Positions 12,662-29,448 of a DNA stretch of 64,000 nucleotides are shown piece after piece (the stretch's first letter is position 1; each line of letters opens with the position of its first letter). The notes below the pieces were generated by a model. The model was given only the letters and a program-made list of their open reading frames with translations, was not told the origin of the DNA and searched no databases. The translations under genes were made by a program, and so were the position numbers. Source of the stretch: Nitrospira defluvii (GTDB lineage Bacteria > Nitrospirota > Nitrospiria > Nitrospirales > Nitrospiraceae); assembly GCA_011525625.1 (NCBI GenBank), contig WYAX01000020.1, positions 62,001 to 126,000 on the forward strand, in the 5' to 3' direction.

Positions 12662-13615
12662 TTAGACATGATTGCGCAGCATCAGCTCCTTCGGATGCGG
12701 ATTGAGGTACACCTGATCACGAATATATTCGACATCGAACGCTTGCACGTAGTGTTTGATCAACGTGAGCGGCACGATCAGTGGCGTCAGCCCCTGATGA
12801 TAATCGGCAATGACTCCCAGCAGCTCGGCCTTTTCCTGCGCACCGAGACGGTCTTTGAAATGTCCCAGGATATGCTGCAAGACATTGACGTGTTTGCGTA
12901 CCGTCGCCCGCACAGCCAGGGCCTGCATGAACAGCTCGCCATATCGAAGTACCAGGTCTTTGGGGCGATACTCATGGACCTGCGCGACCAACCGGCCCAG
13001 CTGGCGGTAGTGTTGGACGCTATGGGCCAAGAGCAGGTACTTATGAATCGTATGAAACCGGACGACCGCCTGCCTCGTGACCCCGCCGTGAATAAGATCC
13101 TGCCAGCGGCGATAGCAGAACACCCGCTCGATAAAATTTTCTCGCAGCAGAGGATCGCTCAGCCGACCTTCTTCCTCCACGGGAATGAGCGGGAATCGCC
13201 CGACAAACGCGCGCGCGAACAGGCCCACGCCTTTACGATTCGGCATGCCGTGCTCGTTGTATGTCCGGACACGTTCCACCCCGCAACTCGGAGAGTCCTT
13301 TTTGAAGACAAATCCCGACAGATCGACAGCCTCCAGATCGACCAGGCGTCTGTCGGTCACGAGTTCGAGGGCTCGTGTGTGATCCCGACCGCTCTTGATA
13401 CTCACCAGTCTCGGCTGTTGCGGATCTCCTACCAGCCGCATCGCCTCACGCGGCGTACCGAGTCCCGCTTCGACCTCCGGACAGACCGGAACCCATTCGA
13501 CATATCGGCCGAGGACGTCCGTTAAGAATTGATCCCGCTTGTGGCCGCCGTCAAAGCGAACCTGCTCGCCGAGGAGACAGCGGCTGATGCCGAGGCGAAG
13601 TGCCGACGTCGTCAT
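12662..13615 (-). CDS. DUF523-DUF1722 fusion protein
   Basis: A 317-residue two-domain protein. The N-terminal DUF523 half has LGISRCLLGEQVRFDGGHKRD and the cysteine block KKDSPSCGVERV; the C-terminal DUF1722 half contains FHTIHKYLLLAHS. Both domains are linked to light- and photolyase-associated gene sets in many bacteria. DUF523 conserved cysteines suggest a metal site, possibly for thiouracil-type chemistry. The start overlaps the photolyase stop by ATGA. Confidence 0.87.
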   Translation of the reverse strand: MTTSALRLGISRCLLGEQVRFDGGHKRDQFLTDVLGRYVEWVPVCPEVEAGLGTPREAMRLVGDPQQPRLVSIKSGRDHTRALELVTDRRLVDLEAVDLSGFVFKKDSPSCGVERVRTYNEHGMPNRKGVGLFARAFVGRFPLIPVEEEGRLSDPLLRENFIERVFCYRRWQDLIHGGVTRQAVVRFHTIHKYLLLAHSVQHYRQLGRLVAQVHEYRPKDLVLRYGELFMQALAVRATVRKHVNVLQHILGHFKDRLGAQEKAELLGVIADYHQGLTPLIVPLTLIKHYVQAFDVEYIRDQVYLNPHPKELMLRNHV

Positions 13616-15057
13616 GGGGCTACCTTCTGCTTCCCGAGATCCAGATATTCCTGGCGCGCCTGCCGATGATCCACAATGGGTTCCGGGTAGTCGATGCCGA
13701 TCCGGCATCGAGCCCGGACCTGTTCCTCCTTGGGCATGAGCGCCGGTTCGTGAATCCATTTTGTCGGCACCTGACTCAGCTCCGGGACGTACTGGCGCAC
13801 ATAGCCTCCCTCAGGGTCGAACTTCGCACTTTGCAGGGTCGGGTTGAAAATCCGATAGCCCTGCATCGCATCGGTCCCGGTCGACGCACACCACTGCCAG
13901 TTGCCGTTGTTCGCCGCCAGATCTCCGTCTACCAACTGCTCCATGAAGTAGCGTTCTCCGCTTTGCCAATCCAGCCGTAGATCCTTCACAAGGAACGACG
14001 CCGCGACCATGCGCACGCGATTGTGCATCCAGCCCGTTTCGTTCAGCTGGCGCATCCCCGCGTCGACGATCGGATAGCCGGTCCGCCCCTGACACCAGGC
14101 GGCAAACAACCGATCGCGCTCCGGCCCGGCGGGACGCGGAGCAGGAAGCCCGGGCTTCGCCTTGAACGGTCCCTCGGCCACATGCGGAAACGCCGACAAC
14201 ACCTGTTGAAAAAACTCCCGCCACACCAGCTCATCCATCCAGGTGAACACATCGGCACGAGAAACCGGTCCGCCCTTCGAGAGCGTCTGCAGCGCGGCAT
14301 GTACCATCGTGCGCGTCGTGATCGTGCCGAACCGCAAATGGGGGGACATCTTGGACGTCCCGTCCTGAGCGGGGAGATTCCTGCCGCTGACGTAGCGATG
14401 TATCGGCCCTTTCAAGAACCACTGTAACCGAGCACGGGCGGCCTGTTCACCCGGCTCGATCCACGTCGGCACCGAGGCATACCCGAGCGCTTCCGCGGTG
14501 GGCCAGGGGGGCAGGGAGGAACCCGCAGCGTGGTCCACCGACGGAATGGCAGGAACCGGCAGCACCGACGGAGCCGCCGCACGCCACTTCGTCCACCACC
14601 GATCCCGATAGGCACTGTATCGTTGAAACGGGTCCCCGGTCAGACCCCGCACTTCTTCCGCCTCAAACACGACATGATCTTTAAACGTCTTCACGGTGCG
14701 GCCTTGTCGAGCCAACTGCTGTTGAGTCTGGCGATCTCGATCGATGGCGGCTGGTTCATAGTCTCGATTCCAGTACACCGCATCCACCGATAGATCCTGA
14801 GCGGTCCGTAACACCGTCTCCACCGGCTCGCCCATTCGCCAGAGAAGCGACACCCCCCGCTCGGCCAGCGAACGCCGCAGATCGTCCAAACACCCCAGCA
14901 TGAATCCCACACAGGCGGATCCAAACACATGGGATTGCAGCAACGGCTCGTCGAACACAAACAGCGGTACGATCTCTCGACACTCACGACAAGCCGCCGA
15001 GAGCGCGGGGTTGTCATGGATGCGAAGATCTCGGCGAAACCACACCAACCCTCTCAC
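13612..15057 (-). CDS. phr: Class I deoxyribodipyrimidine photolyase
   Basis: A 481-residue light-driven repair enzyme that splits UV-induced pyrimidine dimers. The N-terminal antenna domain begins VRGLVWFRRDLRIHDNPAL; the FAD domain shows GRTGYPIVDAGMRQL, WMHNRVRM and NNGNWQWCASTGTDAMQGYRIFNP. I place the start at a GTG whose last three bases with the next base form the stop of the upstream gene (GTGA overlap). A longer ATG-initiated form would add 25 unrelated residues. Confidence 0.95.
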   Translation of the reverse strand: MRGLVWFRRDLRIHDNPALSAACRECREIVPLFVFDEPLLQSHVFGSACVGFMLGCLDDLRRSLAERGVSLLWRMGEPVETVLRTAQDLSVDAVYWNRDYEPAAIDRDRQTQQQLARQGRTVKTFKDHVVFEAEEVRGLTGDPFQRYSAYRDRWWTKWRAAAPSVLPVPAIPSVDHAAGSSLPPWPTAEALGYASVPTWIEPGEQAARARLQWFLKGPIHRYVSGRNLPAQDGTSKMSPHLRFGTITTRTMVHAALQTLSKGGPVSRADVFTWMDELVWREFFQQVLSAFPHVAEGPFKAKPGLPAPRPAGPERDRLFAAWCQGRTGYPIVDAGMRQLNETGWMHNRVRMVAASFLVKDLRLDWQSGERYFMEQLVDGDLAANNGNWQWCASTGTDAMQGYRIFNPTLQSAKFDPEGGYVRQYVPELSQVPTKWIHEPALMPKEEQVRARCRIGIDYPEPIVDHRQARQEYLDLGKQKVAP

Positions 15058-15485
15058 GAAGGCACCTCCGGGGAAGACGAGGCCAACCGAGTCGTTGGCG
15101 GCAGGGGATCTGCGAACAGCACTCGTCGCCACGCAACATAGCAGAGAAACAGCGCCGTTGTGGCCATAAATCCCGTGCGGAGATGATGGTAGCCGAATTG
15201 AAACTGATTCATCAGTTCGCTCGTGATGCCGAATCCGCCATAGGCCATCGCGAGCCCCCAGGACCAGGGGCGGAGAAAGACGAAGCCGTACCCGATCAGG
15301 AAATGCACGGCCGGCGAATGCAGTTTGACCAGGTAGGCCAGCGGACCGACGATTGTCACGCCGAATAACTTCAACGCATAGGCGGGGAAAAACTCGATGA
15401 TGAGCAGGTCGATCAGCCCCACAAGCAGAAAGAGCGCGCCGAACAACTTGAGATCGATGCCGCGTTGTGTGGTCTGTCTTACCAT
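15054..15485 (-). CDS. Small polytopic membrane protein of unknown function
   Basis: A 143-residue protein with about four hydrophobic segments (LKLFGALFLLVGLIDLLIIEFF, FLIGYGFVFLRPWSWGLAMAYG, GFMATTALFLCYVAW). I do not recognise the family. It overlaps the photolyase start by four bases, so it is probably cotranslated with phr. The hydrophilic C-terminal tail is rich in Pro and Ser. Confidence 0.75.
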   Translation of the reverse strand: MVRQTTQRGIDLKLFGALFLLVGLIDLLIIEFFPAYALKLFGVTIVGPLAYLVKLHSPAVHFLIGYGFVFLRPWSWGLAMAYGGFGITSELMNQFQFGYHHLRTGFMATTALFLCYVAWRRVLFADPLPPTTRLASSSPEVPS

Positions 15486-15534: not shown

Positions 15535-16059
15535 TTAGCGCATCCAGGCGTCGGGAAACGCCTGCCACCAGGTCGTGGGGTGCGCGTTCCGCCATTGCGT
15601 CTGTTCCTGCCAGAGGCGGTCGGACACGGCCTTGTTCAGTCGCACCGCCATGGCGGCGCTGACGTCGGCCTGTTGACGAACGCTGGTCTGGATCATCTCT
15701 TTCGCCATCCTGGCCAAACCGCCGGGGGGATCGACGAGATCCTCCGTATGCCGATAGGCCAGATTCAAATACAACTGCTCCACGGCCATCCAGCTTTCGT
15801 CTCTGGACAATTGTTCCAGATACGCGTCAATCGCCTGATAGACGTACGTGAGATGCAGATAGGTCTCGGCTGACGGACGGTGTTGAATTCCCTGTTCGCA
15901 GGCTTCCAGCGCCCGACGATAGTCACCCGCCAGTAGATACAGACTTGTCCTCTCGATTCCCGACAGAGTCGGCGACAGCGAAGGACGGTCCCACCCCACG
16001 GCCGGCGACGGGCCTGTCATGAGCATCAGCATCACCAGTCCTGCAATGACCTGTCTCAC
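15535..16059 (-). CDS. Exported TPR-like protein of unknown function
   Basis: A 174-residue protein with a signal peptide (MRQVIAGLVMLMLMTGPSPAVG). The mature part is helical; GDYRRALEACEQGIQHRPSAETYLHLTYVYQAI looks like one or two tetratricopeptide-type helix pairs. The function is unknown. It lies between the PDZ protein gene and the membrane protein gene in the same direction. Confidence 0.72.
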   Translation of the reverse strand: MRQVIAGLVMLMLMTGPSPAVGWDRPSLSPTLSGIERTSLYLLAGDYRRALEACEQGIQHRPSAETYLHLTYVYQAIDAYLEQLSRDESWMAVEQLYLNLAYRHTEDLVDPPGGLARMAKEMIQTSVRQQADVSAAMAVRLNKAVSDRLWQEQTQWRNAHPTTWWQAFPDAWMR

Positions 16060-16066
16060 GCGTCAC

Positions 16067-16549
16067 CTATTTGGCCGGGCCGCCGTGCGACCCCATCTGT
16101 CCCTTGTACAATGTCTGACCGGCGACCCGGGTGACGGACAGCTCCCGCACGCCGCTCTCGGATTTCACGCCCAATCTCACGACGGTTCCCGGTTCCCCAC
16201 GGACCATCAGGGCCACCTCTTCGTAGGTCTTGCCCGTCAACGCAGCCCCGTCCACGGACATCACCTGATCACCCTGCTTGAGTCCGGCTTTTTCCGCCGG
16301 ACCGTCGGGCAACACCTGGGCGATCAACAACACCGAGGGATCACCCACTCGCTCCGCTCCGACATGCAGCGCCACGCCGATGACGCCATCCGGGACGCTC
16401 GCTTCGAGACCATACATACCGCCTTGCGCCCTCGAGTTGTCATGACCTTCAGCGGCCCAAGCCTGATGGCTCATGATCGAGGCCTGGCCCACCCACAGGC
16501 TCAGCACTCCGGCAAGGACGTACCGCCCAACATACGTATGTGTCTGCAT
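16067..16549 (-). CDS. Exported PDZ-domain protein
   Basis: A 160-residue protein with a signal peptide (YVLAGVLSLWVGQASIM) and a single PDZ domain in the second half (VLPDGPAEKAGLKQGDQVMSVDGAAL). There is no protease domain, so it probably acts as a periplasmic adaptor. The start at MQTHTYV is preferred to upstream in-frame codons because the signal peptide begins there. It ends about seven bases before the next gene. Confidence 0.8.
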   Translation of the reverse strand: MQTHTYVGRYVLAGVLSLWVGQASIMSHQAWAAEGHDNSRAQGGMYGLEASVPDGVIGVALHVGAERVGDPSVLLIAQVLPDGPAEKAGLKQGDQVMSVDGAALTGKTYEEVALMVRGEPGTVVRLGVKSESGVRELSVTRVAGQTLYKGQMGSHGGPAK

Positions 16550-16571
16550 CGTCTTTCTCCCTTCATCCTGA

Positions 16572-17054
16572 TCACAAGTGACGACCCGCGCCGACCAACC
16601 AAAGACCACCGAGCAGGACCAGCACATTCAGGTACAGCGACCGCTGATGCAACCGAGTCCAGGCCGCCTGCAGCATCGGATCGACGGAACCCTGCCGCTC
16701 CTGCTCTTTGAGCCGATCCCTCATCGCGTTACTCTGCGGCGTCAAGGGGGAACGGCAGTACGACTCCGCCAGAAGAATCACCAACCAGATTCCTCCGGCG
16801 CCCAAGAGAGAGCCGGTCAGGCCGTGGAGGATTCCGAGCACGATCAACGAGAGGAACCCCAGCGTCGCCGCTCCCATGCCCAGGAGATAGTACGCAGGAA
16901 ACAACCGGCGCACGACAGATCCGAACTGGTCGGGCTCCAACTGCTTCGCAAGAATCGGCGCAACCACAAAGGACAGGAGCACGACCTTGCCGACCAGAAC
17001 GGCCACCGACAGCGCGTGGGCATACTGCATCGCCGACTCAATGATGGCGGTCAT
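16572..17054 (-). CDS. DUF4149 membrane protein
   Basis: A 160-residue protein with four predicted membrane segments: residues about 10-32, 52-72, 78-98 and 140-158. The pattern ALSVAVLVGKVVLLSFVVAPILAKQL and FPAYYLLG matches DUF4149 (TMEM205-like). The function is unknown. The start overlaps the epimerase stop by ATGA. Confidence 0.8.
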   Translation of the reverse strand: MTAIIESAMQYAHALSVAVLVGKVVLLSFVVAPILAKQLEPDQFGSVVRRLFPAYYLLGMGAATLGFLSLIVLGILHGLTGSLLGAGGIWLVILLAESYCRSPLTPQSNAMRDRLKEQERQGSVDPMLQAAWTRLHQRSLYLNVLVLLGGLWLVGAGRHL

Positions 17055-17968
17055 GTTTGACCCTCCGCGTCGAAGATCGCTCGCAAAGCCGGTTCCAACT
17101 TCGGATATCGAAAGACAAACCCTCCTGCCCGCACCTTGGCCGGGTCCACACGTTGCCCGGTGGTCATCAATGTCCCCAGCTCACCCAACGCCAGATGCAA
17201 GGCGAACCCGGGGACGGGAAGCCACGAAGGTCGATGGAGCACCCTGCCGATGGCGGAACACAAGTTCTTCATGGTCACCGCCTCAGGCGCCACCGCATTG
17301 ATCGGTCCTGACACTGTGGGCGTGGCGACGGCCCATTGGATGAGACCGATCAGATCGGCACGATGAATCCACGACACCCATTGCGTCCCGGGCAGCACCG
17401 GCCCTCCGGCAAAGAACCTGAACGGCAGCACCATCTTCGGTAGCGCCCCACCGTCCTGTTCCAGCACCATGCCTGTGCGCAGGACCACCACTCTTGTCTG
17501 AAATTGACCGGCGCGCAACGCCTCGGCCTCCCAGGCTGCGGAAAGGTCTGCCAGAAACCCCGTCCCGAGTGCCGACCGTTCGTCGAGAACCCGGTCGTCG
17601 CTGGCGCCGTAGTACCCGATGCCTGACGCACTGACAAAAACGGGAAGCGGCGAGGCACGCTCAGCGAGGGCGTCCACCAGCAATCTGGTGCTGCACGTCC
17701 GACTCTCCAGCAGCAGCCGCTTGCGGGCCGGGGTCCATCGGCCTTCGGCGATGGGGGCCCCGGCCAAATTGATCACTGCGTCGGCTGCCTCCACCTCAGC
17801 CCGCCATGGGCCCATCGATCGGGCATCCCACTGCACGTAGCGGACAGACGAATGAGACGAGTGACGGGGGGTCCGACACAACACCACTACGTCATGCCGC
17901 TGCTGCGCTACCTCCGCAACCAGCGCATGACCGATGAACCCTGTACCTCCGGTGACGACGATCCGCAT
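17051..17968 (-). CDS. TIGR01777-type NAD-dependent epimerase
   Basis: A 305-residue extended SDR with the Rossmann motif VTGGTGFIGHALV and the C-terminal DUF1731 region (FALHLALGELGTLMTTGQRVDPAKVRAGGFVFRYP). Family members (YfcH/SulA-like) often occur in photolyase clusters. It is presumed to act on a nucleotide-sugar or lipid substrate, but the real substrate is unknown. The start at MRIVVTGG is preceded by GGTGGAG. Confidence 0.88.
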   Translation of the reverse strand: MRIVVTGGTGFIGHALVAEVAQQRHDVVVLCRTPRHSSHSSVRYVQWDARSMGPWRAEVEAADAVINLAGAPIAEGRWTPARKRLLLESRTCSTRLLVDALAERASPLPVFVSASGIGYYGASDDRVLDERSALGTGFLADLSAAWEAEALRAGQFQTRVVVLRTGMVLEQDGGALPKMVLPFRFFAGGPVLPGTQWVSWIHRADLIGLIQWAVATPTVSGPINAVAPEAVTMKNLCSAIGRVLHRPSWLPVPGFALHLALGELGTLMTTGQRVDPAKVRAGGFVFRYPKLEPALRAIFDAEGQT

Positions 17969-17999
17969 GTGTCGCTTCTCCACCTACAGCCTGTGTCGA

Positions 18000-18353
18000 C
18001 TACGGCTCAATCTGTGAGCCGTTTTGGGGGGACTGTCTACCGCTCTCCGTATCTCCCCGATCGGGTGCCTGCTTCGATCCTGATTGCCCTGGTAGGGCCG
18101 TCACACGTTGACTGTACTTTCGCTCCTTCGTGCCATACAGCAGATTCGGAGGTGGGCTATACCGATTCTTCAAGATCACCGGATCGAGCACCTCCCCGCA
18201 GATGGTGCAGTGCCATGCGGTAATGTCGATTTGACCGGTATCGTCCAGCAAATCGATGTACTGTTGCGTCAAAAGTAACCCCCCGCATCGAGGACAACGA
18301 TGATTGTCCTGCTGCGGAGGAGTATATGGCTCCGGCGTCCCATGTGTGTCCAT
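18000..18353 (-). CDS. Zinc-ribbon protein, paralogue A
   Basis: A 117-residue protein with a four-cysteine zinc ribbon: [10 protein letters not shown] near residues 19-27 and [10 protein letters not shown] near residues 50-57. The pattern CxRCGGL, about 27 residues, CxxCGxxxDPVIxxNR is shared with the 98-residue protein encoded at 22168-22464, so the two are paralogues at the two ends of the same gene block. The C-terminal tail is polar and low in complexity. The function is unknown; nucleic-acid or protein binding is plausible. Confidence 0.75.
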
Positions 18354-18444
18354 TGGAACCCCCGACTTCCAGAAAATTGAACGGCCTTCCCCGCACTGTC
18401 ACCTCTGTCATGGAGGTGCGCCATACCTCGCGCCCACGCACACC

Positions 18445-18576
18445 CTAGCTGACACGAGCCCGATTCTTCCCCTGGCTCGGTACGACGGCGTAGGCCCGTT
18501 GCCTCCGGCTCATGAATGCGGCCGCTGCCACGCTCACCGCGACCAGTGCGATCCCTACGACGATCAGTTGCCCCAC
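18445..18576 (-). CDS. 43-residue single-span membrane peptide
   Basis: A GTG-initiated frame of 43 residues with AAGGGGGAGC directly upstream. Residues 2-21 form one membrane helix ([18 protein letters not shown]), followed by a positively charged tail (SRRQRAY, KNRAR) that would stay in the cytoplasm. It lies in the same direction as its neighbours, between the SUMF1-type gene and the zinc-ribbon gene. I do not recognise a family. Confidence 0.55.
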
Positions 18577-18757
18577 GTGCTCCCCCTTACTGCGAGTCCT
18601 GTTATTTCGAGCCTCGCGCCACTCCGTCAGATGGTTCGCTGAGGGGACAGGTTCCTCCGAAGGAAGAACCCATCCGCCTCAACGGGAGGCCGCGTGCGGA
18701 GTCGCGGTACCTCCAAAATCGTGACCACTTCCATCGAGCCCACCGACTACGACACGG

Positions 18758-19618
18758 TTACTTTGCCGGCTCTTGTGCCGTATGATCCTGACCCTGCCCC
18801 TCCAGGCTGCGCACACAACGGAAGCCGGTGCCATGGGTCTGCAACGCGAATCCACCTCTCCCGCGCGCCGTCGCCGTGATGTCGGCCAGAGGACTGTGCC
18901 AGGATCCTCCTCGGATCACCCGCACGATGCCCTTCTCCGGCCCTTGTGGATTCGCCGTCGGAGCATTCGCGTAATAGTCGGGGTCGTACCAGTCCTGCAC
19001 CCACTCGCGAGCATTACCGGACATATCCTTGATGCCATAGGGAGAGTCACCTCCCGGCAGCGACCCGACGGCATAGAGCGTCTTTTCGTTGACCCACTCC
19101 CGGTCGAAGTTCGCACGGGTCGTCGATGCTTCGTCATTGCCCCATGGGAATGTCCGGCCGTCAGTCCCACGTGCCGCCTTTTCCCATTCCGCCTCAGTCG
19201 GCAAACGCTTTTTCGCCCATGCGCAGTAGGCCTTGGCGTCGTACCAGGTCACCTGCACCACCGGGAGTTGCTCGATTCCCTTCGCCGACACCAGCGCACC
19301 GGTGCCATAAGGGTTCGGCGGATTCCGGTGGCCGGTCGTGGCGACAAAGGCCAGGTACCGTTCATTGGTCACCTCCACCTGATCGATCGCAAAGGCATCG
19401 ACATGAACCTTACGTTGCGGCCACTCGTCAGCTCGCCCCTTCGGACTCTGCGTACCCATGAGGAATGATCCTGCGGGAATCGTGATCATGGGCACGAGAT
19501 CCAGCTCCTTGACGGGCGGCGCCGCCAACGCGGGGCTCAGGGCGAGCGTTAAGGCGGCCGTTGCGAAGAGACCCACCGCACTCCACCTGGTCCCTCTCTT
19601 GCTCAAACCTTGTGTCAT
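18758..19618 (-). CDS. Exported formylglycine-generating-enzyme-fold protein A
   Basis: A 286-residue protein with a signal peptide (VGLFATAALTLALSPALAA) and a SUMF1 domain: ITIPAGSFLMGTQ, YDAKAYCAWAKKRLPTEAEWEKAARG, GNAREWVQDWYDPDYY, VIRGGSW and a C-terminal GFRCVRS. The active-site cysteine pair of true sulfatase-modifying enzymes is not evident, so a binding or structural role is more likely. The start overlaps the stop of the SmbP-like gene by four bases. It is one of three paralogues here and lacks the C-terminal helical tail of the other two. Confidence 0.85.
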   Translation of the reverse strand: MTQGLSKRGTRWSAVGLFATAALTLALSPALAAPPVKELDLVPMITIPAGSFLMGTQSPKGRADEWPQRKVHVDAFAIDQVEVTNERYLAFVATTGHRNPPNPYGTGALVSAKGIEQLPVVQVTWYDAKAYCAWAKKRLPTEAEWEKAARGTDGRTFPWGNDEASTTRANFDREWVNEKTLYAVGSLPGGDSPYGIKDMSGNAREWVQDWYDPDYYANAPTANPQGPEKGIVRVIRGGSWHSPLADITATARGRGGFALQTHGTGFRCVRSLEGQGQDHTAQEPAK

Positions 19619-19983
19619 CGCTTCTGCTCCTTGCTCCCCGCGATCGCCTGTTCCGTGTGTATGCTGATCTGTCCGACCAGGCGCTTCACAGCACCTGCAT
19701 CGCCACGGTCGGCGGCCTCCTGCGCCTGGGTCACGAGGGTTCTTGCTTCATGCAAGTGTTGTTCGATTTGTGCCTGCAGATCGGGCGACGCCACGGTCCC
19801 GCCGAGGGCCGCACGGTGATAGACCTCCCAGGCATGGTCCACGCTATGTTCCGCCTCATGCACAAGCTGCACGTGTTCTGGATGGGTAAGGCGACTGGTA
19901 TCGATCGGGCCGGCCTGTGCCGCCATCGACCACAGTGACACCGCGAACCCGCCGACCAGCGTGATCATCATCCTGTTCGTCAT
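19615..19983 (-). CDS. Exported His-rich helical protein, SmbP-like
   Basis: A 122-residue protein with a signal peptide (ITLVGGFAVSLWSMAAQA). The mature part is helical with regularly placed histidines and acids (HPEHVQLVHEAEHSVDHAWEVYH, QIEQHLHEARTLV). This resembles the small metal-binding protein (SmbP) of nitrifying bacteria, a periplasmic helical bundle that binds divalent metals. The similarity is by pattern only. It is translationally coupled to the downstream SUMF1-type gene. Confidence 0.7.
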   Translation of the reverse strand: MTNRMMITLVGGFAVSLWSMAAQAGPIDTSRLTHPEHVQLVHEAEHSVDHAWEVYHRAALGGTVASPDLQAQIEQHLHEARTLVTQAQEAADRGDAGAVKRLVGQISIHTEQAIAGSKEQKR

Positions 19984-20036
19984 GACTCTGCCTCCATCGT
20001 GGACACCCAATGAGCGACTCCGTGCGCTCATCGCCA

Positions 20037-21095
20037 TTACCGTCGAGTCATCGACTGCTCGATCAAGGGCCGCAACTCGAGAAGCTCGACGTTGACCGGA
20101 TCCAGTGCCAGTCCCCGATCGACCGCTTGCAGGGCCTCGGCAAATCGTTCCCGCCCCATTTCCACCAACGCCGTGATGTACGTGTCCCGAATCCGTTGTT
20201 CCCAGTCGGGCGGCGAAGCCTTGGCGCAGCGGAATCCCAACCCGACGCCGTAGCTGTTGTTGAGCGGATGATTCCAGAACCGATGGGTGGATCGAATGGC
20301 TCCTTCCGGCGCGATCCAGGAACCGCCGCGAATGACGCGCTTTTCCCCGACCGTCAGTCGATCGACATAGGTGCCGGTGCCGCCGAGCCACAGCGGCTTT
20401 TCCGGACCGGTTGGATTCACCATCGTCTCCAGACGGCCGTAGTATTTAGGATCGTACCAGTCCGAGACCCATTCGAAAACATTGCCCGCCATGTTGTAGA
20501 CGCCGTAATAGCTCACCCCCTCCGGATGAGAGTCCACCGGCAGCGTCGCCTCGTGATGCCGATCATAGTTGGCCTTGCTGGAATCGAAATCGTTGCCCCA
20601 GGGGTAGAGGTTCCCGTTCGGTCCGCGAGCCGCCTTCTCCCACTCCGCCTCGGTCGGCAGACGCTTGCCGCGGAACTCGCAGTAGCTCTTGGCGTCGATC
20701 CAGTTCACCCCAACGACCGGCTGACGAGCCTTGTTCAAGCGGGGATCGTCCCAGTACGCCGGCGCGGGGTGACCGGTGGCACGTATGAAGTCGCCATAGT
20801 CCTTGTTCGACACCTCGTACTTGTCGATGAGGTAGGAATCCAAAAAGACCATATGGGCCGGCCCTTCGTCATGAAACGCCTCCGCGGACCAGGGCGTTTT
20901 CATCCGTTTGTCATAGGGGGTGAGTTTCCGCGTTGATTGTACGGACTCGCCCTTATCCAGTCCCATGAGGGAAGGCCCCTGACCGATGTAGACCATGTCA
21001 TTCGGTATGGCTGAGTCCTCTGCATGGGCGGCCGAAAGCGCGAGGATCGCGCCCACAACCAATCCAGCTCCCAGCACGTGTCTCATCCTGTTCAT
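20037..21095 (-). CDS. Exported formylglycine-generating-enzyme-fold protein B
   Basis: A 352-residue protein with a signal peptide (VLGAGLVVGAILALSAAHA) and a SUMF1 domain (YIGQGPSLMGLD, GKRLPTEAEWEKAARGPNG, YGVYNMAGNVFEWVSDWYDPKYY, VIRGGSWIAP, GLGFRCAKA). The catalytic cysteines are absent at the expected place (THRFWNHPLNN). A C-terminal tail of about 60 residues is helical and TPR-like (ERFAEALQAVDRGLALDP). The start at MNRMRHV has GAGGAGG upstream. It is a close paralogue of the next gene upstream. Confidence 0.85.
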   Translation of the reverse strand: MNRMRHVLGAGLVVGAILALSAAHAEDSAIPNDMVYIGQGPSLMGLDKGESVQSTRKLTPYDKRMKTPWSAEAFHDEGPAHMVFLDSYLIDKYEVSNKDYGDFIRATGHPAPAYWDDPRLNKARQPVVGVNWIDAKSYCEFRGKRLPTEAEWEKAARGPNGNLYPWGNDFDSSKANYDRHHEATLPVDSHPEGVSYYGVYNMAGNVFEWVSDWYDPKYYGRLETMVNPTGPEKPLWLGGTGTYVDRLTVGEKRVIRGGSWIAPEGAIRSTHRFWNHPLNNSYGVGLGFRCAKASPPDWEQRIRDTYITALVEMGRERFAEALQAVDRGLALDPVNVELLELRPLIEQSMTRR

Positions 21096-21160
21096 GCCGT
21101 ACCTCCTCGCCTGTCGGCGCGGCAGGGAGGCGGGTATTCCCGCCCCTCTGCAGTCACGCA

Positions 21161-22120
21161 TTACTTCTTCATGCTCTTCTTAATCAGCTCGCGGGTCGCT
21201 TGATACTCTTTGTTGTCCGGATCCGCAGCGAGTGCCTTCTCAATGGATGCCAGAGCGTCAGCATTCTTTTCCGCACCCATGCCGACGAGCGCCTGGATAA
21301 AGGCATCACGCCCGGCTTGAGCCGCTTCTTCCGACACCGCGTTGACCGACTTCGCGCAACGGAAGCCCAGGCCGACGCCGTAGGAGTTGTTCTCCGGTTG
21401 GTTCCAGAATCGATGACTGGTGTGCAGAGATGTTTCAGGAGCAAGCCAGGATCCGCCACGCAAGACTTTCACCGGGCCTTGATTGGCGAAGTTGTACCCT
21501 TTGTCTGCACCGCGCGGATTCAGCGCGTTACTGCTCCGGTAGTATTTCGGATCGTACCAATCGTCCACCCACTCGAAGACGTTCCCCGCCATGTTGTAGA
21601 CGCCATATCCACTGACGCCCTCGGGATACGAGTCGACCGGCATGGTGCGACCCACGTTTTGTCCGTAGTTCGCCCTCTTCGGATCGAGGTGATGACCCCA
21701 GGGATAGTGGTTGTCGCCTTCCGGTCCCTTGGCCGCTTTTTCCCACTCCGCCTCAGTGGGCAATCGCTTGCCATCCCACTTGCAGAAGGCGTTGGCATCA
21801 GTCCAGCTCACTCCCACCACCGGCTGCTCTGGCTTGCTGAGACGCGGATCGTCCCAGTAGGCCGGGGCCGGATGGCCGGTCGCCCGCATGAATTCCTTGT
21901 ATCGCGCATTCGACGCTTCGAATTTGTCGATGAGGTACGCGTCCAACACGACTTGATGTCGAGTCTCGTCCGCATGCTCGTTGCTGCCCATGGTGAATTC
22001 ACCCTTGGGAATGAGCACCATATCCTTCTCGCCCGCCGACTCGGCCGCGCCCGACACCGTCGCCGCGCCCGCCAATAACACCACCGCTATGCCCACCTGA
22101 ATAGTTGTTTGTCTCCGCAT
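21161..22120 (-). CDS. Exported formylglycine-generating-enzyme-fold protein C
   Basis: A 319-residue protein with a signal peptide (IQVGIAVVLLAGAATVSGAA), a SUMF1 domain (VLIPKGEFTMGSNEHADE, GKRLPTEAEWEKAAKGPEG, YGVYNMAGNVFEWVDDWYDPKYY, GLGFRCAKS) and the same TPR-like tail as paralogue B (KNADALASIEKALAADPDN). The region that should hold the catalytic cysteines reads TSHRFWNQPEN. The start has AAGGAGGG upstream. It is the second gene behind the operator-rich promoter region. Confidence 0.85.
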   Translation of the reverse strand: MRRQTTIQVGIAVVLLAGAATVSGAAESAGEKDMVLIPKGEFTMGSNEHADETRHQVVLDAYLIDKFEASNARYKEFMRATGHPAPAYWDDPRLSKPEQPVVGVSWTDANAFCKWDGKRLPTEAEWEKAAKGPEGDNHYPWGHHLDPKRANYGQNVGRTMPVDSYPEGVSGYGVYNMAGNVFEWVDDWYDPKYYRSSNALNPRGADKGYNFANQGPVKVLRGGSWLAPETSLHTSHRFWNQPENNSYGVGLGFRCAKSVNAVSEEAAQAGRDAFIQALVGMGAEKNADALASIEKALAADPDNKEYQATRELIKKSMKK

Positions 22121-22167
22121 GTCACCCTCCTTGATTAGATCGCCCATAACGTTCTTTATGCTGGCCG

Positions 22168-22464
22168 CTACGCAGACACCTGCGCCTGAGAACCCGGACC
22201 GACGGACTTCAGCTCTCGAGCAACAACAGCCGATTGCTGGAGATGACGATTCAACCGAATGACCGGATCGACGATGTCACCGCACTGCACACAGCGAAGA
22301 GTGGAACAGTCGAGCGAGCCTGAGCCGTTGAGAAGGTCGGTACAGAAGTCAGGCACCATGAGCCCTCCGCACCGCATGCAGCTCGACTCGTGCCGGAAGT
22401 TCAAAAACTCAACTCGTGCCCCTCTTCGTTGTTCGCTTTTCTGATGTGTGTGTTGTGTTGCCAT
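22168..22464 (-). CDS. Zinc-ribbon protein, paralogue B
   Basis: A 98-residue protein with a four-cysteine zinc ribbon (SCMRCGGLMVP and RCVQCGDIVDPVIRLNR) that is paralogous to the protein encoded at 18000-18353. It is the first gene leftward from the divergent regulatory region; its start lies 20 bases from the nearest operator copy and is preceded by AGGAGTC. As first gene of the array it may be a co-regulator or a marker of the same stress response; the function is unknown. Confidence 0.78.
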   Translation of the reverse strand: MATQHTHQKSEQRRGARVEFLNFRHESSCMRCGGLMVPDFCTDLLNGSGSLDCSTLRCVQCGDIVDPVIRLNRHLQQSAVVARELKSVGPGSQAQVSA

Positions 22465-22483: not shown

Positions 22484-22578
22484 TGTCCAATGTTTGCAAC
22501 GACTATGTCCAATGTTTACACCCTACATGTCCAATGTGTCAAGTGTTTTATTTAGAAATATTTGACAAACATTGGACA
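22484..22578. promoter_or_regulatory. Operator cluster: three 22-bp-spaced repeats and one inverted copy
   Basis: Three direct copies of TGTCCAATGTTT lie at 22484-22495, 22506-22517 and 22528-22539 (the third ends GTGT), at an exact 22-bp period, equal to two helical turns. A fourth copy in inverted orientation (AAACATTGGACA) lies at 22567-22578. Every copy has the same orientation relative to the promoter it faces. Proposed binding site of the MerR/B12 regulator encoded next to it. Confidence 0.8.
22513..22542 (-). promoter_or_regulatory. Leftward promoter of the minus-strand array
   Basis: On the minus strand a consensus -35 TTGACA (22537-22542) is followed by an 18-bp spacer and a weaker -10 TAAACA (22513-22518). 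The third operator copy fills most of the spacer and the second overlaps the -10, so bound regulator would occlude RNA polymerase. Confidence 0.55.
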
Positions 22579-22590
22579 TGAAACTATACT
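22562..22590 (+). promoter_or_regulatory. Rightward promoter of the MerR-type regulator gene
   Basis: A -35 TTGACA (22562-22567), a 17-bp spacer and a -10 TATACT (22585-22590) give a near-perfect vegetative promoter. The inverted operator copy (22567-22578) begins at the last base of the -35 and covers most of the spacer, implying autorepression. Confidence 0.75.
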
Positions 22591-22603: not shown

Positions 22604-23521
22604 ATGAATACCCACAGAATTCATAGGGTTGCAAAGCTCACCGGCCTAAGCCGTGACGTCATTCGTGTGTGGGAGCGTCGGTTTGACCTACTCAAACCGA
22701 CCAGAGGAGCAAACCGGTATCGCAATTATTCGGATGAGGACGTGGCGCTGCTGCGGTATCTCAAGCAACAGCTGGATGCCGGGGCTTCCATCGGGGATCT
22801 CGCCAAGGTTGGACGCGAAGAGCTGATCGGCCGCATGCGGGCCGCGGCGCCGCGGACGGCGATCGTCGACAACACATTCGACCGATTGTTGCGCGAACTC
22901 CTCATCGCGCTGGAACCACTCGATCGGGTGACGTTTGAAAAGCGATTGAACGGTGCCGTGGCCGTCGTACCGTTTGAAGAGGCCTTACACGGCATCCTGC
23001 TGCCCCTTCAGGAACGCGTCGGTCAATTGTGGCACACGGGCCGCATCAGCGTGGCCGTCGAGCACTATGTGACCAGCCAGATCAAACAAAAACTCTATGC
23101 GGCCATGAACCAGCTGCCGGTCGCCGAATTCGGCGCCACCGTGGTCGTGGCCTGTCCGCCCGGCGAGGAACACGACCTGGCGGCATTGGCAGTCGCGTAT
23201 CGCTGCCGTGTCCGCGGCTGCCGCGTCTATTATCTCGGCGCCAACGTCCCGATCCTCTCTCTCAGCAATCTCTGCCGCGAAGTCACACCGGACCTGACCA
23301 TTCTCTCCTGCACCATCGCACTCCCAGATTCGCTGGCCATCGAGCTGATTCAATCGCTGGCTCAAGAGGTGTTACCGCTGTCCAATGTCCTGGCCGGCGG
23401 CCAGGGGGCGCTGGCCATGCGGCGCCACTTCAACGGATACAATATCGACGTGCTAGAGACCTTCGGCGAGCTCGACGAAAAGTTGGAGCAATTCACCCGG
23501 CGCTTTCCGATCCCAGGCTGA
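22604..23521 (+). CDS. MerR-type regulator with cobalamin-binding domains (CarH/LitR-like)
   Basis: A 305-residue regulator. Residues 1-70 form a MerR winged helix (HRIHRVAKLTGLSRDVIRVWERR). Residues about 90-165 form the helical cap with W143 followed by nine residues and E153-H154, the Wx9EH signature of adenosylcobalamin photoreceptors. Residues 175-300 are a B12-binding Rossmann domain with H190 in GEEHDLAAL as the likely lower axial ligand; the usual glycine three residues later is alanine. CarH-type proteins repress as B12-bound tetramers in the dark and release DNA in light. The ATG at 22604 is chosen; a TTG 42 bases upstream lies inside the -35 box. Confidence 0.88.
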   Translation: MNTHRIHRVAKLTGLSRDVIRVWERRFDLLKPTRGANRYRNYSDEDVALLRYLKQQLDAGASIGDLAKVGREELIGRMRAAAPRTAIVDNTFDRLLRELLIALEPLDRVTFEKRLNGAVAVVPFEEALHGILLPLQERVGQLWHTGRISVAVEHYVTSQIKQKLYAAMNQLPVAEFGATVVVACPPGEEHDLAALAVAYRCRVRGCRVYYLGANVPILSLSNLCREVTPDLTILSCTIALPDSLAIELIQSLAQEVLPLSNVLAGGQGALAMRRHFNGYNIDVLETFGELDEKLEQFTRRFPIPG

Positions 23522-23537: not shown

Positions 23538-23939
23538 ATGATTCCATACCCACTCACCGTGTTCTACGACGGGGCTTGCCCTCTGTGCAGTCGCGAGATG
23601 GCGTTGATGAAACGCCTCGACAGTCACCACCGACTCAGACTCTGTGATTTCTCCGCGCCCGGTTATGATGCTGAATCGACGGGCCTCGACCCAGCCCGTC
23701 TTGGTGCAGTGCTTCACGCGCAATGGGAAGACGGAACGATCATCACCGGTGTGGAGGTCTTCCGCGCCGTCTGGCAATCAGTCGGCCTGGGCCTCCTGGC
23801 TCGCGTGAGCCGGCTCCCGGTGATCGACCCGCTATTGATTCGGGGCTATGCGTGGTTCGCGAGGAACCGGCTGTGGCTGACGGGACGCAAGACCTGCACT
23901 TCGGAAACGTGTCGAACAGCCGCGACACCGCAGAGGTGA
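23538..23939 (+). CDS. DCC-family thiol-disulfide oxidoreductase-like protein (DUF393)
   Basis: A 133-residue protein with the DCC-family start VFYDGACPLCSREM, including the CxxC motif near residues 14-17, and the later block VEVFRAVWQSVGLGLLARVSRLPVID. Members are thought to have a thioredoxin-like fold. It follows the regulator gene by 16 bases on the same strand and is probably cotranscribed. DUF393 genes recur in light-inducible clusters of other bacteria, which fits this position. Confidence 0.85.
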   Translation: MIPYPLTVFYDGACPLCSREMALMKRLDSHHRLRLCDFSAPGYDAESTGLDPARLGAVLHAQWEDGTIITGVEVFRAVWQSVGLGLLARVSRLPVIDPLLIRGYAWFARNRLWLTGRKTCTSETCRTAATPQR

Positions 23940-26584: not shown

Positions 26585-27487
26585 ATGCGTGAATATGGAA
26601 AGCTCGGCCCAACGTTTTGGACCGGCGAGACCGGTAAGAAGATCAGGCGCAAAGGTCGGGACGCGCAGGTGGCCTCTGCCTATTCAATAACGTCGCCAGG
26701 GTCGAACATGCTGGGCATGTATTACCTTCCCATTCCCGTACTGGCTCATGAAACCGGAATGACCTTGGAAGAGGCATCGAAGGCCCTTCAATGCCTCTCC
26801 GAAGTGGGCTTCGCATACTATGACGATGAATCAGAATACATCTTTGTGCCGAACATGGCACGGTTTCAAATTGGTGAGAGATTGAACGAGAACGACAAGC
26901 GGGTTACTGGCATCAAAAAACAGCTTGAGTCTTCGAGAAAGAGCCCATTTTTCAATCAATTCCTGGACCTCTACCGCGAGCCATTTCACCTTCAAGATGT
27001 AAGTCCCTCTGAAGCCCCACAGAAGCTCCTTCGAAGCCAGGAGCAGGATCAGGAGCATGATCAAGAACAGGAACAGGAGCATTTTGCCGCTACGCCTAAG
27101 TCTGGCGAGCGGCAGCTTGTGAAGGTTGTCGAGGGTAGGACCGTAGGAACTTGGGATGCGTATTCAGCAGCCTACCGATTTCGTTATGGGGTCGATCCAC
27201 ACCGAGACAGAAAGGTCAATGGAGTGTTAGCCAAATTGGTCGATCGATTGGGCCCAGAGGTGGCCCCTCATGTTGCTGCATTTTACGTGGAGCACAACAA
27301 GCCCTTCTACGTCTCAGAGAGGCACCCCGTCGAATTGTTGTTGAAGGATTGTACTGGCCTGAAGACGCAATGGCAGACGGGCGTGAAGGCTACGACCGGC
27401 GAGGCCAGAAATGCGGAAAGACGAGACGATGTGATGGAACAGGTCAAACGCGTCACGGCCATGATGCAAACCAAAGGAGGTGCGTAG
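26585..27487 (+). CDS. Phage replication initiation-type protein
   Basis: A 300-residue protein. The N-terminal 110 residues resemble winged-helix phage replication proteins (MYYLPIPVLAHETGMTLEEASKALQCLSEVGFAYYDDESEYIFVPNMA). A strongly acidic, glutamine-rich linker (about residues 145-162, repeating QEQ and EHD) separates it from a C-terminal domain around PHVAAFYVEHNKPFYVSERHPVELLLKD. The arrangement fits an origin-binding or helicase-loading protein. The following gene starts within its stop codon. Confidence 0.65.
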   Translation: MREYGKLGPTFWTGETGKKIRRKGRDAQVASAYSITSPGSNMLGMYYLPIPVLAHETGMTLEEASKALQCLSEVGFAYYDDESEYIFVPNMARFQIGERLNENDKRVTGIKKQLESSRKSPFFNQFLDLYREPFHLQDVSPSEAPQKLLRSQEQDQEHDQEQEQEHFAATPKSGERQLVKVVEGRTVGTWDAYSAAYRFRYGVDPHRDRKVNGVLAKLVDRLGPEVAPHVAAFYVEHNKPFYVSERHPVELLLKDCTGLKTQWQTGVKATTGEARNAERRDDVMEQVKRVTAMMQTKGGA

Positions 27488-28041
27488 TGGAATTGGCAAA
27501 AGCAGTAGCCGCGACCTTTGCCGTTGTTGGACAAGAAATGCCGGATATTGGCCTTGCCACTATCGTCGGTGAACTCCAGGACTACCCGCTGGGAGATGTC
27601 CTCACGGCCCTTGCGCGCTGCCGAAAAGAGCTTCGGAAAATCACGCTGGCAGACATCATCGATCGCATCCCGAGTGGGCATCCCGGCATCGAAGAGGCCT
27701 GGGCCATGATCGCGGGATTGCTGAGCGATGAAGACCGTTCAGTGGTCTGGACTGACGAAATGGCAGAAGCCTTCGGAGTGGCAAGGCATTTAGCTCATGA
27801 CAAGGTTGCGGCTCGTCTTGCGTTCAAAGAGACCTATTCCAAAGCCCTTGCTGAGGCGCGAGATCAGAAGCGCAGTCCCAAATGGCGGGTGTCGCTGGGA
27901 CATGATCCGCATGGCCGGCAGGGAGCGCTTGAGGAAGCAGTACGCCTTGGACGGATACCAGCGGAGCACGCTCAGAAACTTCTTCCCAATTATTCAATCC
28001 CTGAAGGCGTCACGTTGCCAAAACTTCGAATCATTGCGTAG
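27487..28041 (+). CDS. Replication-associated phage protein of unknown function
   Basis: A 184-residue protein starting at a GTG that overlaps the upstream stop, with a perfect AAGGAGG six bases before it. The middle block (LGDVLTALARCRKELRKITLADIIDRIPSGHPGIEEAWAMI) is of a type often encoded beside phage replication genes. The C-terminal part has WRVSLGHDPHGRQGALEEAVRLGRIPAEHAQKLL. Its role is not established; helicase-loader partner is one possibility. Confidence 0.65.
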   Translation: MELAKAVAATFAVVGQEMPDIGLATIVGELQDYPLGDVLTALARCRKELRKITLADIIDRIPSGHPGIEEAWAMIAGLLSDEDRSVVWTDEMAEAFGVARHLAHDKVAARLAFKETYSKALAEARDQKRSPKWRVSLGHDPHGRQGALEEAVRLGRIPAEHAQKLLPNYSIPEGVTLPKLRIIA

Positions 28042-28055
28042 CGCAAGGGAGATTT

Positions 28056-28232
28056 ATGCAAGTACTTACTGATTCAACTCGAAACCAGGTGATTATTCGA
28101 GGTGAAGGAAGCGAGATCAGACTGTCTTGGGCGGCTGCGTTAAATCTCGGCTCGCTGCTGATTAAGAAATCACAAGAAGCAGAACCCCCAGCGCGGCCTG
28201 GGAAGACGTATGAACCCACGCCTGAGCGGTAA
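28056..28232 (+). CDS. 58-residue element protein
   Basis: A short gene with AAGGGAG before its ATG. The product begins MQVLTDSTRNQVIIRGEG, has a hydrophobic middle (LSWAAALNLGSLLIKK) and a Pro-rich tail. It is in line with its neighbours and separated by only 14 and 18 bases from them. No family was recognised. Confidence 0.55.
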   Translation: MQVLTDSTRNQVIIRGEGSEIRLSWAAALNLGSLLIKKSQEAEPPARPGKTYEPTPER

Positions 28233-28250
28233 GAAAAGGGACGAGTAGGT

Positions 28251-28544
28251 ATGACAGCAAAGGCAGCTAAATCAGCGAACCACAAGGCGAAAACGAATAC
28301 CCCTGGGGGTATGGATTGGCAGGCCTTGGAGACAGTTGGAGATGTGAGGCGGATGTTTCGCTTCTGCATCCTGGAAGTCAAACGAGGCCGGCTGAGCCCA
28401 AAGAAATCAAACGCCATGGTCTATGCAGGCTCGTACATTCTCGCGTCCTTCGAAACTGAAGAGTTCGAACGACGGCTCGCGCAGCTTGAAGCCGATCGCG
28501 GCAGCAATGATGGTGGTGTGATCAACATCTCGGTGAGTAAATGA
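28251..28544 (+). CDS. 97-residue phage-type protein
   Basis: The product has a basic N-terminus and a helical core (WQALETVGDVRRMFRFCILEVKRGRLSPKKSNAMVYAGSYILASF), a pattern seen in small phage proteins preceding structural genes. A terminase-small-subunit-like role was considered but no large subunit follows. Its stop overlaps the next start by ATGA. Confidence 0.55.
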   Translation: MTAKAAKSANHKAKTNTPGGMDWQALETVGDVRRMFRFCILEVKRGRLSPKKSNAMVYAGSYILASFETEEFERRLAQLEADRGSNDGGVINISVSK

Positions 28545-28717
28545 AACGATCAGCACAAGCACGGCTGGAACGATTAGAGAAGGGCAAGAGTGGGCGCAGT
28601 GGAGCCCTCGCTGTTCCGAACCCCTGCACACTAGAGGAATGGGTTGCCAGATGGCAGCACTATAACCCGGAAGAAGCTCAGCCAGCCATTTTGATCGACG
28701 ATAGGAGACCCTCATGA
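28541..28717 (+). CDS. 58-residue element protein
   Basis: A short gene bounded by ATGA overlaps on both sides (28541-28544 and 28714-28717), which strongly supports translation. The product starts MKRSAQARLERLEKG and contains TLEEWVARWQHYNPEEAQPAIL. Its first 20 residues resemble those of the 107-residue protein two genes downstream (MNRSLRSRLDRLAGQ). The function is unknown. Confidence 0.6.
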   Translation: MKRSAQARLERLEKGKSGRSGALAVPNPCTLEEWVARWQHYNPEEAQPAILIDDRRPS

Positions 28718-29067
28718 AATTCATTCAAATCGAAAACATGCATGTCGACGTGGAAAAGATCGAGTTCATCAAAGAAGAGCCGCAACATCTCGACGTTCCG
28801 CGGATTGATGTCTACTACGTCAGCCGTTTGTTTCAGCTGCGTTCTGATTCCCCCAAATGGGCAGAGCTTCAGGCGGTGCTTCCCTCCACCTACCTGAAGA
28901 TCCAGGACGCCTATATCGACGTGACCAACGTCAGCTTTGTCCGAGAAGAAGTCCAGAGCCAGGGCCAGCCGGTATGTGTGATCAAGTATCACGAGCGAGA
29001 GCTACGCGTACTCAAGGGCTCAACAGAATGGAACCAGCTTCAATCCAAGATGTATCCGGAGGCCTAG
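28714..29067 (+). CDS. Protein made of two tandem homologous repeats
   Basis: A 117-residue protein whose two halves align along their length. Residues 3-56 (FIQIENMHVDVEKIEFIKEE ... WAELQAVL) match residues 60-113 (YLKIQDAYIDVTNVSFVREE ... WNQLQSKM). Each half looks like a small beta-rich unit ending in a helix. The start overlaps the previous stop. No known family was identified; a small DNA- or tail-binding protein is possible. Confidence 0.65.
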   Translation: MKFIQIENMHVDVEKIEFIKEEPQHLDVPRIDVYYVSRLFQLRSDSPKWAELQAVLPSTYLKIQDAYIDVTNVSFVREEVQSQGQPVCVIKYHERELRVLKGSTEWNQLQSKMYPEA

Positions 29068-29069
29068 AG

Positions 29070-29393
29070 ATGAATCGCTCGCTGCGCAGCCGGCTGGATC
29101 GCTTGGCAGGGCAAAAACAAGGCGCCCCTCAAGTCGCCTACCTAGAATACGATTCATTGCAAGTACTTGGCGAGGAAGCCATCAAGAAGGCGTTTGAAGC
29201 GGGATATCTCGAACCCGGTTGCGCGTTGATGGTGCTCCCTAAAACGCTGACGCCTGAACAGTGGGAATCCATGATTCCGATTTGGCATGAATGCCTACGA
29301 ACCGGATCGAAATGGGATGAGGTGCCGTACTGGGCCGGGGGCGGGGCCCTGATGCCGAATCAGCTGTTCGATGACGGGAAAACGAATGCATAA
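29070..29393 (+). CDS. 107-residue element protein preceding the tape measure
   Basis: A helical protein beginning MNRSLRSRLDRLAGQKQG, with LGEEAIKKAFEAGYLEPGCALMVLPKTLTPEQWESM. It starts two bases after the previous stop. By position just before a tape-measure gene it could be a tail-assembly chaperone, but the sequence does not show this. Its end overlaps a tiny frame that runs into the tape-measure start. Confidence 0.55.
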   Translation: MNRSLRSRLDRLAGQKQGAPQVAYLEYDSLQVLGEEAIKKAFEAGYLEPGCALMVLPKTLTPEQWESMIPIWHECLRTGSKWDEVPYWAGGGALMPNQLFDDGKTNA

Positions 29394-29448
29394 ATTGAAG
29401 GGGTTGCAAGGCTTGCTAGCCACTTACAAACGCCGGGGGGCCATATGA
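29371..29448 (+). CDS. Tiny overlapping frame bridging to the tape-measure gene
   Basis: A 25-residue frame (20 residues if the internal ATG at 29386 is used) that overlaps the end of the preceding gene in the +1 frame and whose stop forms an ATGA with the tape-measure start. The product is basic (HKLKGLQGLLATYKRRGAI). It may be a coupling peptide, or the tail of a frameshifted version of the preceding protein. Confidence 0.3.
   Translation: MTGKRMHKLKGLQGLLATYKRRGAI

Follow-up and report, generated by a model that had tools for sequence, protein, structure and literature searches.

A conserved direct repeat as the apparent operator of a CarH-type regulator in Nitrospira

The question raised by this locus is what a short repeated sequence does between two divergent genes, one of which encodes a regulator of the B12-photoreceptor type. 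The answer that we reach from the sequences is that the repeats are probably the operator of this regulator, which would repress both promoters in the dark.

Repeat copies on two back-to-back promoters

In the window, which is the whole 64-kb stretch of DNA analysed, the 12-mer TGTCCAATGTTT is found exactly at 22484-22495 and 22506-22517 on the plus strand and at 22567-22578 on the minus strand, and a further copy at 22528-22539, TGTCCAATGTGT, has one mismatch to it. All four copies sit between 22464, where the minus-strand gene starts, and 22604, the ATG of the regulator. The original prediction described three identical direct copies; since the copy at 22528-22539 has its mismatch, this is limited to the 10-mer TGTCCAATGT, which starts at 22484, 22506 and 22528 (steps of 22 and 22 bp), and does not hold for the 12-mer. 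Allowing one mismatch at most, the 12-mer has four matches in the 64 kb against 0.15 expected, and no shuffled sequence reached four. No further exact occurrence of TGTCCAATGTTT was found in the 4.6-Mb genome, where the regulon was searched by sequence patterns only. Other one-mismatch sites in this genome are single copies, about as numerous as those of the reversed pattern used as a control; no pairs and no link to a promoter were seen among them, and they were set aside. Read on the minus strand, each direct copy is ACATTGGACA, which contains TGGACA, a form of TnnACA; this core of CarH operators is present in all four copies (in the direct copies, on the other strand).

The regulator promoter has its -35 element, TTGACA, at 22562..22567 (+) and its -10 element, TATACT, at 22585..22590 (+), with 11/12 matches and a 17-bp spacer, and is the sole sigma70-like match in the surrounding 10.8 kb. 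The inverted copy, S4 (22569..22578, +), lies within this spacer, as was originally proposed, and its TnnACA stands exactly 11 bp after the one contained in the -35 element. On the opposing side, the operon promoter has a -35 TTGACA at 22537..22542 (-), which is perfect in nearly all 76 relatives, and a weak -10 region at 22513..22520 (-) with two readings, TGTAAA (16-bp spacer) and TAAACA (18-bp spacer); beyond the closest group, the majority of relatives have TATACA at 17 bp. The third direct copy, S1 (22528..22537, -), was rightly placed at this promoter, in whose spacer it lies and whose -35 it touches. S2 (22506..22515, -) overlaps the predicted -10, and S3 (22484..22493, -) falls in the predicted 5' leader of the divergent operon. 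The copies thus overlap -35/-10 elements at both promoters, with spacers of ~17 bp in most relatives, an arrangement that fits repression.

The regulator and the divergent photolyase operon

The regulator gene (22604..23521, +) encodes a 305-amino-acid protein with a predicted MerR HTH domain and AdoCbl-binding four-helix and Rossmann domains, as in CarH of Thermus thermophilus and Bacillus megaterium; the Pfam models MerR_1, B12-binding_2 and B12-binding all match above cut-off. The closest solved relatives are CarH structures, at a distant level of similarity (T. thermophilus CarH 5C8D, E=3e-28, residues 4-269 of 305). The NCBIfam CarH model is the best match, but at 129 bits it stays below the equivalog cut-off of 400, and we therefore regard the protein as a divergent CarH relative and not as the named equivalog. 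The Wx9EH signature and the axial histidine that had been noted before are present as W143-x9-E153-H154 (W, E and H in 74, 73 and 74 of 74 homologues) and H190, and the bis-His residue H144 is also kept, again as in the two known CarH proteins. In the alignment, W143, H144, E153, H154 and H190 are the counterparts of Trp131, His132, Glu141, His142 and His177 of TtCarH. The longer motif ExHx2Gx41SxV/Tx22-27GG is found with correct spacing (E188, H190, S235, T237, G265-G266) except at one position, where A193 replaces G; homologues have G in 43/74 and A in 30/74 cases. The photoreceptor signature GxxW, EH, GxxH and GxxxP (PMC11796333) appears as G140-W143, E153-H154, G187-H190 and G212-P216, and is complete in 64 of the 74 homologues. 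Apart from the strict NCBIfam cut-off, these tests support membership in the photoreceptor group, and both the closest solved relative and the signature residues agree with the earlier reading of a B12-photoreceptor-type regulator. The genome also encodes two families of the AdoCbl-forming corrinoid adenosyltransferase.

Downstream of the regulator, a gene for a DCC1-like thiol-disulfide oxidoreductase (23538..23939, +; Pfam) is a conserved neighbour in many relatives and is probably co-transcribed with it. Further to the right, phage-like genes at 26585-31865, among them those for a DnaD-like helicase loader and a tail tape measure protein, suggest a prophage.

The divergent side is a minus-strand run. 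Its first gene encodes a small zinc-ribbon-like protein with two CxxC pairs (22168..22464), followed by an exported FGE-sulfatase-fold protein (21161..22147, identified by Pfam), a second one (20037..21161), a conserved small protein of 131 aa (19615..20010) and a third exported FGE-sulfatase-fold protein (18758..19618). Then come a second zinc-ribbon protein of 117 aa (18000..18353), a TIGR01777/YfcH-type oxidoreductase (17051..17983, above the NCBIfam cut-off), a DUF4149 membrane protein (16572..17054), a PDZ-domain protein (16067..16627), a conserved 174-aa protein (15535..16059), a 143-aa membrane-like protein found in part of the relatives (15054..15485) and, as the last gene of the syntenic run, a DNA photolyase (13612..15132; Pfam and NCBIfam). 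By synteny, this order is identical in nearly all relatives with enough contig: the zinc ribbon, the three FGE-fold genes with the small gene between them, the second zinc ribbon, the TIGR01777, DUF4149, PDZ and 174-aa genes, sometimes the 143-aa membrane protein, and then the photolyase. An operator before photolyase genes, for which the original prediction had suggested a search, is thus found. The three exported FGE-fold proteins (18758-22147), conserved alongside the photolyase, are without the catalytic cysteine pair that we take to mark true formylglycine-generating enzymes. The whole run would be one transcript, a roughly ten-gene operon, although a 404-bp gap at 18354-18757 may split it.

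Conservation and wider occurrence of the operator

With a loose threshold, 94/118 genomes of the GTDB family have a homologue of the regulator, and in 70 of these it is a strong one; those relatives that carry a name belong to Nitrospira, N. defluvii and N. moscoviensis among them. The array is kept in 74 of 76 distinct upstream regions of homologues, whose regulators are 43-100% identical; a region was counted as keeping it if the minus-strand -35 TTGACA and two ACATTRGACA copies (S1 and S2) had six mismatches or fewer altogether, and most had 0-2. The exact 22-bp step holds in the window and only partly elsewhere: in the 74 relatives the S1-S2 step is mostly 21 bp (64 regions, against 22 bp in 7), and the S2-S3 step is 22 bp in 57/62 of those that keep S3 at two mismatches or fewer. 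S4 stands at a fixed distance after the regulator's -35 in relatives. N. defluvii has steps of 21/22 bp plus S4, and in N. moscoviensis a third copy follows S2 at 11 bp. The operator columns are near-invariant and the spacers variable, at ~50% protein identity. The repeats are therefore real, far beyond chance and conserved in related genomes next to -35 boxes, the two points that the original prediction had proposed to check. Judged from these alignments, a short repeat is kept over very long evolutionary time on two back-to-back promoters.

Exact operator patterns occur in 55 of the 70 family genomes with a strong regulator homologue versus 0/48 without one (Fisher 4e-20). Beyond the family, the paired-repeat pattern had no match in 217 other genomes of the phylum, and reversed-pattern controls gave 0-1 matches. 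The first FGE gene has a close homologue in only 3/31 regulator-less genomes tested (2 contig-edge or fragmented). In one genome (G006, L206 at 1048) no regulator was detected, yet TTGACACATTGGACA is kept upstream of FGE-like genes, so that this site is either a relic or belongs to an undetected regulator.

The operator can also be found at other genes in a comammox-containing genus, in 79 genomes of which TTGACNNACATTRGACA has 37 matches and the control none. In about 24 of these the gene that follows is the regulator, in nine it is a group-2 sigma70 gene, in three amoC and in one a DCC1-like gene. The last is in G387 (L290, 1500, minus strand), before a gene for a DCC1-like thiol-disulfide oxidoreductase, and no regulator was found directly behind this site. 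The sigma70 gene with the operator is unlinked to the regulator and was seen in nine or more genomes, all of a single genus (loci L085, L256-L261, L264, L267, L271, L278, L285, L288 and L293); of the sigma genes obtained by a strict protein search, 5/5 carry the site in the same place with 0-3 mismatches.

Between amoC and a divergent glutathione-peroxidase gene (gpx), four comammox-type genomes have an operator-promoter of TTGACTAACATTRGACA or with two mismatches: L291 (G352, a contig of Nitrospira sp. CG24B), L295 (G294), L296 (G067) and L300 (G329). In the fourth genome the operator has two mismatches and is followed, 178 bp downstream, by a complete amoC; what looked like a truncated amoC in L291 is an assembly gap of Ns instead. 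Since most of the ~70 amoC copies that were read are without the operator, such control of amoC is not general. As a separate observation, in several comammox genomes a second copy of the regulator, ~51% identical, is followed ~1.2 kb downstream by a complete amoC on the same strand (L068 2194-3003 and 4159-5085; G352:C15:1751871; G035:C6:222250).

A probable variant CarH operator and the case for dark repression

Known CarH operators consist of 11-bp repeats, nnnnTnnACAn (PMC9304148), and in the Thermus CarH complex repeats 1 and 3, at a distance of 22 bp, are both bound by a single head-to-tail dimer (PMC9304148; PMC8156234). The 22-bp step is thus equal to two CarH 11-bp units and is less exotic than the original prediction suggested; together with the TnnACA core it points to a variant of CarH operators and not to a new principle. 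In our analysis, such a step would be what the CarH geometry predicts when the middle contact is weak or missing. A possible degenerate middle repeat does lie between S2 and S3 (22495..22500, -), with GTTGCA for TnnACA; this middle position has a full TnnACA in 6/74 relatives and RCA in 52/74, and some species have an exact copy 11-12 bp after S2. In an offset test the middle 11-bp repeat does not stand out on average from other offsets, and because of this flat result the 2x11 reading rests on those species and on the CarH geometry, which makes a degenerate 11-bp unit between S2 and S3 suggestive. Apart from some relatives, clear tandem 11-bp repeats, which are characteristic of known CarH operators, are confined to the regulator promoter, and on the operon side the steps are of 22 bp.

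Compared with the operators of T. thermophilus and B. megaterium CarH, the locus shares TnnACA repeats over -35/-10 elements and, at the regulator promoter, units 11 bp apart. It differs in that its strong copies are 21-22 bp apart instead of forming 3-4 tandem 11-bp repeats, in its extended 10-mer ACATTRGACA, in having two divergent promoters under copies of opposite orientation, and in its target, a photolyase/FGE operon where the known systems have carotenoid genes. Myxobacterial CarH operators (Haliangium, Sorangium, Cystobacter; PMC9304148) likewise mix full (DR) and degenerate (dr) 11-bp repeats and in some species also lie on divergent promoters; their DR numbers are irregular, whereas here a nearly invariant 10-mer runs across the whole family. 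The Pseudomonas class II LitR proteins PplR1 and PmlR2 (PMC9758184) have photolyase and oxidoreductase targets too, light-induced there, and paired direct sites over the -35 and downstream of the start, but with TGTACA at 18-bp spacing (TGTACA-N12-TGTACA). Class II LitR (PplR/PmlR) identity was rejected for the regulator, which keeps the full B12 domain that those proteins lack, with both B12 domains present, and whose site differs in sequence and spacing.

The mechanism that fits these data, and which we consider likely, is that the neighbouring CarH-type (class I LitR-like) regulator uses the repeats as its operator and acts as a dark repressor of both promoters. Loaded with AdoCbl, and probably as a tetramer of two head-to-tail dimers, it would bind the ACATTRGACA copies in the dark; occupancy of S1 and S2 would block the photolyase operon at its -35/-10 region, S3 would carry the complex on into the operon leader, and the regulator promoter would be blocked through S4 and the TnnACA that its -35 forms, resulting in autorepression. 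Green, blue or near-UV light would then cleave the Co-C bond and dissociate the complex, and both promoters, needing no activator, would fire, leading to photolyase, exported FGE-fold proteins, zinc ribbons, oxidoreductases and more regulator. Binding to the repeats, repression rather than activation, the dependence on AdoCbl and light and the tetrameric state are all predicted.

One other option is that the regulator binds these operators but senses B12 availability, redox or another signal instead of light. Loss of B12 would likewise derepress, since the apo form of known CarH proteins does not bind DNA as a tetramer, and B12 supply can be a meaningful signal in this group because Nitrospira marina is a B12 auxotroph that relies on external B12 (PMC8115632). 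Yet the regulator keeps the photoreceptor signature residues, including the bis-His residue, and photolyase, its conserved target, depends on light for repair, which leaves this option rather unlikely. It is less probable still that the regulator works as a MerR activator of the classical type and remodels its promoters, as its N-terminal MerR domain and the position of the sites inside promoter spacers, where MerR activators bind, might imply: MerR activation operates on 19-20-bp spacers, while those here are 16-18 bp with perfect -35 boxes that need no remodelling, the sites are direct repeats and not a MerR dyad, and one copy lies in the predicted leader. Binding by a different protein, such as the small zinc-ribbon protein whose co-conserved gene is the first downstream, has a very low probability, as the operator carries the CarH TnnACA core and occurs at unlinked sites before the sigma factor and amoC; co-occurrence weighs less in this case, because the operon travels with the regulator and another operon protein would follow the same pattern. 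Chance repeats, or structural DNA that plays no part in regulation, are hardly credible: at ~50% protein identity the operator columns stay nearly invariant while the spacers next to them vary, chance never reaches the count, and nothing was found in favour of this option.

Dark repression by the CarH-like protein is thus the reading that we keep: in the absence of light, a B12 light sensor very probably restrains its own gene and an operon whose last gene encodes a DNA-repair enzyme. In the open-access literature we found no publication describing the operator or a CarH in Nitrospira, and none naming a light sensor or a light-controlled regulon in this genus. The operator is therefore, as first supposed, apparently undescribed, and it looks real and functional.

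The inhibition of nitrification by light has long been known, and the locus offers a concrete candidate for a light sensor in Nitrospira, with an exact operator and a predicted regulon. For the comammox species N. inopinata, light inhibition was measured for wavelengths under 550 nm and AMO is thought to be inactivated by light (PMC9797979), so that, with the operator at amoC, light-induced amoC in some comammox species is a testable and as yet unproven idea. We tentatively suggest that in part of the comammox Nitrospira light may free the gpx/amoC and group-2 sigma70 promoters from a CarH-like repressor, so that AmoC and antioxidant defence would be made while AMO is being photo-inactivated; this is somewhat less probable than its negation. 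A CarH-type design with strong sites spaced by 22 bp across a whole family can also help to explain how a CarH assembly selects its repeats. Light control of the repair genes, and of amoC in some comammox species, can now be tested directly, and the operator at amoC links the predicted light sensor to ammonia monooxygenase.
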